64,000 bases of DNA from Planctomycetaceae bacterium (lineage in GTDB: Bacteria; Planctomycetota; Phycisphaerae; Phycisphaerales; SM1A02), in assembly GCA_027490145.1 (NCBI GenBank), contig JAIXYQ010000015.1:62001-126000 (forward strand). The letters are read 5' to 3'. Every line of letters starts with the position of its first letter. The first letter of the stretch is position 1. This document shows, piece by piece, positions 15,090 to 19,602 of the stretch. The notes beneath the pieces were generated by a model that saw only the letters and a list, made by a program, of their open reading frames with translations, did not search any database and was not told the origin of the DNA. The translations under genes were made by a program, and so were the position numbers.

Positions 15090-15950
15090 TCAGGGCGTGG
15101 AGCCCGACGATCCGCCCTTGGTGGAGCCGGAACCGCGGGACGATCCACCCGAGGTCGAGCCCTTGGAGGAGTTCTTCGACGACGTCTGGTCGCTCGAGGA
15201 GTCTGAGCTGCTCGATGAGTCGCTGGAGGAATCGCTGGAGGAATCGCTGGAGGAGTCGCTGGAGGAGTCCTTCTTCGAGTCCTGGTCGGAGTCCGAGCTG
15301 CTCGAGGAGTCCTTCGAAGCGTCGCTGTCCGAGTCACTGGCCGAATCGCTCGAGCCGTCCGAGTCCTTGCCCGACGACTTCGCCGACTTGGGAAGCTTGC
15401 TTCCCTTGGCGACCTTGGCGACTTCGGCGTCGAACGCCTTGTCGTGGGGGTTGCCGATCCAGCTGATCATGCCCTTGGTGTCGACGATGAAGGCGCAGGG
15501 GATGCCGTTCTGGCCGGCGGCCTGCAGCCACGCCGAGGCCATCGAGCGGTCGGCGTCATAGGCGACGGTGTAGGCCATCTTCGAGCCCTGCTTCTTCACG
15601 AAGGCCTCGAGCGGATCCTTGCCGCTGCGCTCGGAACCGGCCACGCCCATCACCACGATGTTCTTGTGCTTCTTCTGCAGCTTGGTCAGGTGCGGGATGC
15701 TCGCGACGCACGGTGGGCACCAGGTCGCCCAGAACTCGACCACGTAGGCGGTGCCTTCATTGAGGCCTTCGACAGGCTTGCCCTTGATGATCTCGTCCAT
15801 GCTGAGCGCCGGCGCCTTGCTGCCCACCGAGAGCCGACCATTGCCTTGATCGCCGGCGGGGGTGCCCGGGCTGCCTTCGGATTGCGCCATCGACGGCGCG
15901 CAGGCAAGGGTGAGGGCGAGGATCGATGCAAGGGTGGTGCTGGTGCGCAT
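15090..15950 (-). CDS. exported thioredoxin-fold (TlpA-like) protein with Ser/Asp-rich tail
   Basis: A signal peptide (MRTSTTLASILALTLACAPSMAQ) precedes a TlpA/ResA-like redoxin domain. The active site is WATWCPPCVASIPHL near residue 77, with a GIPCAFIVD cis-Pro region. After about residue 185 the protein becomes a tail of roughly 95 residues made almost only of Ser, Asp, Lys and Gly, with repeated DSSS, ending in Gly/Ser. The redox domain probably acts on periplasmic disulfides; the tail could be a flexible, acidic wall-spanning or calcium-binding linker (inference). An AGGA site sits before the ATG at 15950. Confidence 0.88.
   Translation of the reverse strand: MRTSTTLASILALTLACAPSMAQSEGSPGTPAGDQGNGRLSVGSKAPALSMDEIIKGKPVEGLNEGTAYVVEFWATWCPPCVASIPHLTKLQKKHKNIVVMGVAGSERSGKDPLEAFVKKQGSKMAYTVAYDADRSMASAWLQAAGQNGIPCAFIVDTKGMISWIGNPHDKAFDAEVAKVAKGSKLPKSAKSSGKDSDGSSDSASDSDSDASKDSSSSSDSDQDSKKDSSSDSSSDSSSDSSSDSSSSSDSSSDQTSSKNSSKGSTSGGSSRGSGSTKGGSSGSTP
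15217..15264. repeat. four tandem 12-bp units in the Ser/Asp tail
   Basis: Units of GAGTCGCTGGAG (with GAATCGCTGGAG variants) repeat four times and encode DSSS on the minus strand. Unit loss or gain keeps the frame. Confidence 0.85.
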
Positions 15951-15998
15951 GGTGGGTCCTTGGGTTGGTCGGCGGATGCTATGCGCAGCGACCGCGGC

Positions 15999-16030
15999 AA
16001 AAAAGCGAACGGCCGGGCGGGAGCCCGGCC
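15999..16030 (-). terminator. intrinsic terminator of the small membrane protein gene
   Basis: On the minus strand GGCCGGGC-TCCC-GCCCGGCC forms a perfect 8-bp stem, followed after 6 nt by a run of six T (15999-16004). Confidence 0.8.
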
Positions 16031-16066
16031 GAGTCGCCAGTGATTCGAAGGAGAAAGGACCGGAAC

Positions 16067-16303
16067 TCAGGTCGTCGAGCGCTTGCTGAACACGGCCAGG
16101 ATGACCATCAGCGCGATCAGGCCGACCAGACCGTTGTTGCCGAAGCCGGAGATGAAGCTCATGAGGTTGTCGGTGATGCCACCGAAGAACCAGGTGTTCG
16201 TCTTGCCGAAGATGATCTGGGCGAGCACGCCGACGGCGATGAACAGCATGGCGATGTCGATGAATTCGCTGGTCCAGCTCTTGAGGGTGTCGAAAGCCTT
16301 CAT
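16067..16303 (-). CDS. small membrane protein, 78 aa
   Basis: The start is fixed by AGGAGG nine nt before the ATG at 16303. The protein has an amphipathic start (MKAFDTLKSWTSEFIDIAML) and two hydrophobic segments separated by a loop with FGKTNTWFFGGITDNLMSFISGFGNN, ending in FSKRSTT. No known family is recognised. The strong Shine-Dalgarno and its own intrinsic terminator indicate a well-expressed single-gene unit. Confidence 0.75.
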   Translation of the reverse strand: MKAFDTLKSWTSEFIDIAMLFIAVGVLAQIIFGKTNTWFFGGITDNLMSFISGFGNNGLVGLIALMVILAVFSKRSTT

Positions 16304-16404
16304 GGTGACTGCCTCCTGTGCAGTGTGGTGAGAATGCAGCCCGCGCACGTTGCGCTTTCCTTGGCTGCACGCGTTGCATCGGTGCAGATCGGACCCAACC
16401 GATA

Positions 16405-17417: not shown

Positions 17418-18503
17418 TCAGGGTTTCACAGCTGGCAGCGCAGCAGGGGGTTGAACCTTGGCCGCGCGCTGCGGTGCATGCGGCGATCGTCGCCAGGGAC
17501 CACCATCGGGCAGTCCGCAGACGTACGCGCTGCCCAGATCGCTGCACGGCACGGGCGCATCGGTGCTGACCACGTTGGCGCCGCTGGTCAGGGCAGCGTC
17601 CCGACGGGTCGGATCGTTCGCGCGCACCTCGCGCAGGTCGGCATCCGCGCGCGTGCGCACCATGTATCCGCGACGCATCAGGTCCTTGATCCGATCACGC
17701 TGGCCGATCGGGTCGTTCACCACCAGGTAGGCCGATCCCGGCGTTCCCTCGGGCGCGTTGACGAAGCACGCGCGTCCCTGCCCACTCGGTCGACCGTCGA
17801 GATACGTCGCGCGTGCCCGTGCGCCGCACTCGAGGATGAACATCACGCGCCCGGCGACCTGGTTGAGTTCGGGCCAACCCAGGGTGCCGATGGCCTCGTT
17901 CAGGGTGGAGGCATCGCCACGCACCAGATCCGGGGTGATGAGCCGATCCGAACCGATCCGATCGCGGATCAGCGCATCGAGGGCATCGAGTGCCTTGGCA
18001 TCGAACGGTGGTGGCGGATCGATCCGGTAGCCGGCAGGTCCGTCGTAGCCCGACTCCTTGAGCTCGAGCTGGACCAGGATGGGCACATGGCCTGCATGAC
18101 CGCTGCTCCAGCCGGCGATCTGCGACAGGGCATCCTGCAAGAGCACGCACCGTGTGCCTTGATCGACCGAGGGAACATGGAAGACCTTGAATCCCGGCTG
18201 CCTGAGCAACGACGATGATCCGTGGCCGAAGAGCGGATGCCGGTACAGGCCACCGTCGGGATCGTGATGGACATCGAGCTCGAGGGCGCGGATGTTCTGG
18301 TCGTCCAGCTGGGTGCGCAGCGGGGCATGCGTGTACTGCCAGGCGCGCGCCCGCTCGGCGAAGATCGTGTAGAGCCCCGCCGGAGGCGCCACGTGATAGG
18401 AGTTGTGGGTGCCGATGACCTGGATGTCGTTCAGGCGAAGCCCGGCAGGGAAGGGGCCATCGCCCATGGCGAGCGCGGCAAGCAGCATGGCAACGGCCTG
18501 CAT
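17418..18503 (-). CDS. calcium-dependent PI-specific phospholipase C family protein
   Basis: A signal peptide (MQAVAMLLAALAMG) precedes a PLC-like TIM barrel. The first catalytic His is in DIQVIGTHNSYHV near residue 32, and the metal/His segment is RALELDVHHDPDGGLYRHPLFG. The motif ILVQLELKES fits the third strand. This matches the bacterial Ca2+-dependent phosphoinositide-type PLC family (361 aa). The substrate is likely a phosphodiester lipid or glycan in the periplasm or outside. The C-terminus ends in a Pro/Ala/Arg tail. TACCGT lies 8 nt before the ATG. Confidence 0.82.
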   Translation of the reverse strand: MQAVAMLLAALAMGDGPFPAGLRLNDIQVIGTHNSYHVAPPAGLYTIFAERARAWQYTHAPLRTQLDDQNIRALELDVHHDPDGGLYRHPLFGHGSSSLLRQPGFKVFHVPSVDQGTRCVLLQDALSQIAGWSSGHAGHVPILVQLELKESGYDGPAGYRIDPPPPFDAKALDALDALIRDRIGSDRLITPDLVRGDASTLNEAIGTLGWPELNQVAGRVMFILECGARARATYLDGRPSGQGRACFVNAPEGTPGSAYLVVNDPIGQRDRIKDLMRRGYMVRTRADADLREVRANDPTRRDAALTSGANVVSTDAPVPCSDLGSAYVCGLPDGGPWRRSPHAPQRAAKVQPPAALPAVKP

Positions 18504-18552: not shown

Positions 18553-19434
18553 ATGACGATCGACCGGACCATGGCCATGCGATGGATGGATGCTGCGATC
18601 GAGCAGGCCGAGAAGGGATGGAGCGAGGGGGGAATCCCCATCGGCAGCGTGCTGGCTCGCGCCGACGGCACGATCGTGGCCCGTGGACACAACCAGCGTG
18701 TGCAGTCCGGCGACCCGATCCTGCATGCCGAGATGGACTGCATCCGCAACGCCGGTCGCCGCACCGACTGGTCCGAGCTCACGCTGGTGAGCACGCTGAG
18801 CCCGTGTCCGATGTGCACGGGCACCGCGGTGCTCTACAAGGTGCCGCGCGTGGTCATCGGCGAGAACAGGACCTTCATGGGTGCCGAGCGCTGGCTTGCG
18901 GAGGCCGGCGCGGAGGTGCTCGTGCTGGACGATCCGCGCTGCATCGAACTCATGCACCGACTGCAGCGTGAGAAGCCCGGTCTGTGGGCCGAGGACATCG
19001 GCGAGCACTATCGCCACAAGGTGGCCTTCGTCTGCACCGCCAATTCGTGCCGGAGCCAGATGGCCGAGGGTTGGGCGCGCGCGCTGCACGGCGACCGGCT
19101 CGATGCCTTCAGCGCCGGCGTGCGCGCCAGCACGCTGAATCCGCTGGCGGTCCGCGCCATGGCGGAAGCAGGCGTCGACATCAGCGCCCACGCGAGCAAG
19201 ACCGTGGGCGATCTGCCGACGCACCTGGATGTGGCGATCACGGTCTGCTCCGGTGCGGACCAGGCGTGCCCCGCCATGCCCGGTGCCGTGCGGCGCATCC
19301 ACGCTCCGTTCGACGATCCGCCGCATCTGGCGCAGGGAGCCCGCACCGACGACGAAGCCATGCCGCACTACCGCCGCGTGCGCGACGAGATCCGCGCCTG
19401 GGTCGAGCGGGAACTGCCCAAGCACTTGCATTGA
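18553..19434 (+). CDS. fusion: yeast-type cytosine deaminase + thioredoxin-coupled arsenate reductase
   Basis: Residues 1-151 align by eye with the whole of fungal cytosine deaminase (FCY1 type): zinc ligands His58, Cys85 and Cys88 with catalytic Glu60 in LHAEMD and TLSPCPMC, ending in the typical WAEDIGE. Residues 155-293 are a complete ArsC of the Bacillus type: P-loop CTANSCRSQMAEGW (Cys161, Arg167), the relay cysteines Cys232 and Cys239, the FDDP loop and RVRDEI. No stop or linker separates them (EDIGEHYRHKVAFVC). AAGGAG lies 6 nt before the ATG. All catalytic residues of both halves are present, so both may be active. Such a fusion is not known to me. Confidence 0.9.
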   Translation: MTIDRTMAMRWMDAAIEQAEKGWSEGGIPIGSVLARADGTIVARGHNQRVQSGDPILHAEMDCIRNAGRRTDWSELTLVSTLSPCPMCTGTAVLYKVPRVVIGENRTFMGAERWLAEAGAEVLVLDDPRCIELMHRLQREKPGLWAEDIGEHYRHKVAFVCTANSCRSQMAEGWARALHGDRLDAFSAGVRASTLNPLAVRAMAEAGVDISAHASKTVGDLPTHLDVAITVCSGADQACPAMPGAVRRIHAPFDDPPHLAQGARTDDEAMPHYRRVRDEIRAWVERELPKHLH

Positions 19435-19516: not shown

Positions 19517-19602
19517 GGGCCCTTGGCGGAATTGGCAGACGCAGGGGACTTAAAATCCCTCGCCGCTCACACGGCATCCCGGTTCGAGTCCGGGAGGGCC
19601 CA
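19517..19602 (+). tRNA. tRNA-Leu (TAA)
   Basis: A class II tRNA of 86 nt. GGGCCCT pairs with AGGGCCC. The anticodon stem GGGGA/TCCCT encloses loop CTTAAAA with anticodon TAA. A long variable arm and T arm CCCGG-TTCGAGT-CCGGG are present; discriminator A, CCA not encoded. Confidence 0.96.

Follow-up and report, generated by a model that had tools for sequence, protein, structure and literature searches.

Within a window of 64,000 nucleotides (the whole stretch of DNA analysed), which derives from a genome of 2.66 Mb that is 94% complete, one gene raises the question of whether a yeast-like cytosine deaminase (FCY1 type) and a thioredoxin-type arsenate reductase (ArsC) are truly made as one protein and, if so, whether the two enzymes have anything to do with each other. 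The uninterrupted frame described in a previous, sequence-only reading was found again, being open from ATG to TGA at 18553-19434 on the forward strand, and AAGGAG is seen by eye just 5' of the ATG. The gene, its parts and the adjoining tRNA gene are located in the window as follows.

18553..19434, forward strand: whole fused gene, 293 aa, open frame from ATG to TGA, with orthologues read in frame in seven further genomes of the genus
18553..19005, forward strand: FCY1-type cytosine deaminase domain, residues 1-151, assigned via phmmer and Foldseek to yeast cytosine deaminase (yeast CD)
18976..19005, forward strand: C-terminal lid helix of the deaminase, residues 142-151 (PGLWAEDIGE), which is the fusion point; aligned to yeast CD 149-158
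19006..19017, forward strand: linker HYRH, residues 152-155; in standalone deaminase genes of the family, the stop codon falls here or immediately adjacent
19018..19431, forward strand: thioredoxin-type arsenate reductase domain, residues 156-293 (ArsC matches cover approximately 155-286), assigned via TIGR02691, phmmer and Foldseek
19517..19602, forward strand: tRNA-Leu (TAA), directly downstream of the fusion gene, in the conserved synteny block

Pfam analysis of the fusion protein revealed dCMP_cyt_deam_1 at residues 9-103 (E 2e-21) and LMWPc at residues 157-244 (E 9e-14); together with NCBIfam and phmmer, this conforms with the identity previously given for both domains. The deaminase half matched yeast CD with a phmmer E value of 4e-37 and shares with yeast FCY1 (1uaq, 1p6o) the fold (TM 0.93 over the target), approximately 43% identity, the zinc site and the catalytic Glu. 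His58, Glu60, Cys85, Cys88, Asn47, Trp145 and Asp148 align with what we take to be His62, Glu64, Cys91, Cys94, Asn51, Trp152 and Asp155 of the yeast enzyme. The zinc site HAE ... PCxxC, with the ligands His58, Cys85 and Cys88 and the catalytic Glu60, is invariant in the seven full-length copies of the genus, so that the deaminase active site is indeed intact, as had been proposed. Also common to both proteins is a lid helix ending in WxEDIGE; Trp145 and Asp148 of this helix are present in the fused half according to the alignment to yeast CD, and in the AlphaFold2 model the helix spans residues 142-148. The C-terminal helix of yeast CD acts as a lid (PMC10095239). FCY1 stops at this helix, whereas in the fusion ArsC follows approximately four residues later. 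A direct join of the two domains, as initially assumed, is therefore to be amended to a linker of about four residues (HYRH, 152-155), given that a standalone deaminase of this family terminates at residue 151 or no more than one residue away.

The ArsC half was recognised by TIGR02691, the NCBIfam model for thioredoxin-type arsenate reductase, over residues 158-285 (E 3e-36 to 4e-37) with 124.5-127 bits, which is under the curated cut-off of 174.3. Six standalone ArsCs of the family, four of them adjoining ACR3, also fall short of it with 114-146 bits, which implies that the cut-off is unfit for this lineage; because it is missed, the fused half is, by its sequence, ArsC-like in type and not a proven equivalog. 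The match to B. subtilis ArsC gave phmmer E values of 2e-30 to 3e-31, and the half has in common with the B. subtilis and pI258 enzymes (1jl3, 1ljl) the fold (TM 0.81, Foldseek, 1jl3), the CX5R loop, the pair of relay cysteines and the FDDP motif, differing from them in its position behind a deaminase. Cys161, Cys166, Arg167, Cys232 and Cys239 align with their counterparts in pI258 ArsC, presumably Cys10, Cys15, Arg16, Cys82 and Cys89. None of the seven full-length copies deviates in Cys161 or Arg167 of the C-X5-R loop, in the relay cysteines Cys232 and Cys239 or in Cys166; the active site with nucleophile Cys161, Arg167 and both relay cysteines was thus correctly read from the single sequence.

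In eight of the nine genomes of the genus, which consists of uncultured Planctomycetota, the fusion was found within one and the same synteny block, with seven copies of full length (including that of the window) and one starting from residue 69 owing to a contig end. All eight sequences align without any indel, the junction reading WAEDIGE-[HTSR]-YRH-[KQT]-VAFVCTANSCRS throughout, and the order of genes around the fusion is kept across the genus as far as the contigs reach. The fusion thus recurs in seven further genomes, each read in frame across the junction, where a stop or frameshift between the domains would have contradicted the initial proposal. The ninth genome (G007) is without the entire block from phospholipase to flippase, tRNA-Leu included, for which reason it was rejected as a true absence; the missing fusion is most likely a gap in the assembly. 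A separate ArsC produced from an internal start was considered and rejected: the sole candidate examined near the junction, a GTG at codon 157, is GTC in G005 and hence not conserved. Among the seven full-length copies, dN/dS averaged 0.056 in the deaminase half and 0.108 in the ArsC half, which places both under purifying selection; both are retained as enzymes. In a tree, the eight fused ArsC copies group together (100/90), the nearest relative of the ArsC half being left unplaced. One record titled Bacteroidia bacterium (L033) carries the Planctomycetota fusion at 94% identity, which points to a probable error in how it was titled or binned.

Beyond the genus, neither 400 genomes of the order nor 392 of the phylum yielded a fusion. 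A pattern scan of 84,980 species genomes gave no other full-length match among the best 80 loci, none of 72,556 plasmid records covered 80% of the query, and no relative was found in the viral contigs searched. The other genera of the family encode the deaminase as a gene of its own, in surroundings that differ from those of the fusion, and all standalone copies examined (21/21) end at or within one residue of 151. Apparent matches running beyond the standalone stop were discarded as alignment overrun, since those proteins, too, stop at 151 or one residue from it. In the neighbourhoods examined, a deaminase adjoining ArsC was found in no relative outside the genus, and an origin of the fusion by loss of a stop between already neighbouring genes was rejected on this account. 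The near-universal standalone deaminase in the family suggests an ordinary salvage role. Within the genus, no second FCY1-type deaminase or ArsC was detected, with the reservation that missing genome parts could hide a copy. The other matches in the window's own genome were TadA (scoring above the NCBIfam cut-off) and a protein resembling low-molecular-weight phosphatases, and in the other genomes of the genus no match besides the fusion was better than approximately 5e-15.

Among the six annotated genes around the fusion there is no ars gene (ArsR, ACR3, ArsB), and ACR3, ArsB and ArsP were found in none of the nine genomes of the genus. Intact ArsM is encoded in G002, G004, G006, G007 and G008, unlinked to the fusion, leaving four of the nine genomes without it. 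The window's own genome carries a remnant of 50 C-terminal ArsM residues (L163:7762-7911, on the 455-kb contig C16), which shares 84% identity with the intact copy in G004; ArsM thus seems to have decayed in this species while being intact in five relatives. Each of the nine genomes encodes one channel of the aquaglyceroporin type, which bears the NPARD motif and is likewise unlinked to the fusion. In S. meliloti, ArsC operates with an aquaglyceroporin, the channel replacing ArsB as the exit for arsenite (PMC6205960; PMC4435449).

In the family outside the genus, several genomes have a separate ArsC gene adjoining ACR3; next to some of the family ArsCs, genes resembling ArsR and ArsM were recognised by eye from the sequence, ArsM being confirmed by NCBIfam in a genus copy. 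Two genomes of the same family encode ArsC followed by an ArsM-like methyltransferase in a single frame, namely G052 (L134:5333-6775, reverse strand, 480 aa) and G026 (L136:6237-7760, forward strand, 507 aa), where the frame adjoins an ArsR-like gene and ACR3. These resemble the deaminase fusion in that ArsC is in one long frame with another enzyme and differ from it in having an arsenite methyltransferase as partner and ArsC on the N-terminal side. Three ArsC-type genes in tandem were observed in G085 of the same order (L152:5979-7317, forward strand). As for the neighbours in the window, the gene at 15090-16379 (reverse strand), which is kept near the fusion in the genus, encodes a protein with a likely signal peptide, a C-terminal TlpA/thioredoxin-like part (WCPPC) and a long Ser/Asp-rich tail; it is apparently exported, so that it is no obvious partner of ArsC. 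The gene at 17418-18503 (reverse strand), divergent to the fusion gene, matched Ca2+-dependent phosphoinositide phospholipase C over its full length (PF16670, E 1e-99).

The AlphaFold2 model of the whole chain showed both domains at high confidence (mean pLDDT 90.1). With a pTM of 0.62, the orientation between them is undefined and there is no sign of a fixed interface, a low pTM being no evidence that the domains do not touch.

We consider it probable, at roughly 0.7, that the gene encodes a bifunctional enzyme which arose from one gene fusion in the ancestor of the genus and whose deaminase and ArsC activities are independent. That the halves would act without coupling is suggested by the two genes being unlinked everywhere outside the genus. 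The N-terminal half would convert cytosine to uracil, from which UMP would be formed by uracil phosphoribosyltransferase (Upp); upp was found in all nine genomes of the genus, so that uracil from cytosine would be usable. The C-terminal half would reduce arsenate to arsenite via Cys161, Cys232 and Cys239 with electrons from thioredoxin, and the arsenite may leave through the aquaglyceroporin or, in species keeping ArsM, may be methylated. The benefit of the join, if any, would be shared expression of two halves that we infer to be independent. Against this explanation, no ars gene is located next to the fusion, and with ACR3, ArsB and ArsP missing, and intact ArsM missing in four of nine genomes, arsenite would stay inside the cell unless the unlinked aquaglyceroporin carries it.

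An error of assembly or base calling that joined two genes would be conceivable in so far as all sources are metagenome-assembled genomes; an in-frame fusion free of indels in eight separate genomes, at 86-94% protein identity and a mean dS of approximately 0.6-0.8, makes its probability negligible, and the recurrence rules it out. Among functional alternatives, an allosteric coupling, in which the deaminase lid would be opened or closed by the redox state of ArsC or by its binding of arsenate, with an effect on product release, has the join exactly at the end of this helix in its favour, and the conformation of ArsC differs between the reduced and oxidised forms. In yeast CD, lengthening the helix via a five-residue linker accelerated product release up to ~8-fold and increased kcat up to ~2-fold (PMC10095239), implying that mass attached at the lid helix can affect the rate. 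However, a neutral tail also raises the activity of yeast CD, so that position alone is no argument for regulation, and given the undefined interface in the model and the unlinked deaminase and ArsC genes outside the genus, we regard the coupling, whose redox-switch form had been suggested by the sequence-only reading, as unlikely. Slightly less likely still is its extension to physiology, according to which the ArsC half would be an arsenate or redox sensor gating the deaminase via the lid helix and tying pyrimidine salvage to arsenic or oxidative stress.

About as doubtful as such a sensor is an ArsC half which no longer serves arsenic resistance and would act as a phosphatase or another thiol enzyme. 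The genus-wide absence of ACR3, ArsB and ArsP, the decayed ArsM of the window's own genome and the fold common to ArsC and low-molecular-weight phosphatases would fit this idea. Its phosphatase version, raised by the sequence-only reading, is disfavoured by the retention of all four redox cysteines in every full-length copy, since the invariant relay cysteines 232 and 239 are not needed by phosphatases; moreover, the TIGR02691 score of 127 bits equals that of the ACR3-linked ArsCs of the family (standalone range, 114-146 bits), and an aquaglyceroporin is present. A further alternative, akin to the arsenylated or modified nucleobase considered in the same reading, is that the deaminase and ArsC work one after the other on a single nucleobase or nucleoside containing arsenic. 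For it, the two active sites in one chain could be taken to speak, as could a PDB entry titled as cacodylate bound to yeast CD (8vlj), which indicates that an arsenical can be accommodated by a deaminase with this fold; yet cacodylate is a common crystallisation buffer. We know of no arsenic-containing nucleobase or nucleoside substrate of such kind, no paper joining both enzymes was found in the searched literature, and nowhere else are the genes for the two enzymes linked, an argument against a joint pathway of ancient origin that makes this proposal highly improbable.

The independent bifunctional enzyme, then, was compared with what is known of ArsC fusions. These include ArsR-ArsC, ACR3-ArsC (M. 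tuberculosis), AqpS-ArsC (Salinispora) and ArsN-ArsC (PMC6205960), and according to a view cited in the same paper the small size of ArsC makes it predestined for fusions. The gene described here is like them in that a small ArsC shares a chain with a partner; their partners act in arsenic sensing, transport or resistance, whereas here the partner is an enzyme of pyrimidine salvage. In the literature searched, no paper treats a deaminase-ArsC fusion as such, the one publication retrieved for both enzyme names dealing with oxidative stress, in agreement with the earlier statement that no protein of this architecture had been described, and no published fusion of ArsC to a non-arsenic partner was found. 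Both enzymes and ArsC fusions as such are already known; it is the pairing that is new within what was searched.

By the searched literature, the gene adds to the ArsC fusions a partner that is unrelated to arsenic. Because the fusion falls on the deaminase lid, it also parallels, in a natural protein, the extensions engineered at the C-terminus of yeast cytosine deaminase, which is used in prodrug therapy. As no FCY1-type deaminase or ArsC other than the fused protein was detected in the genus, these bacteria offer a clean natural case in which to ask whether a fusion must have a functional link between its halves to persist.
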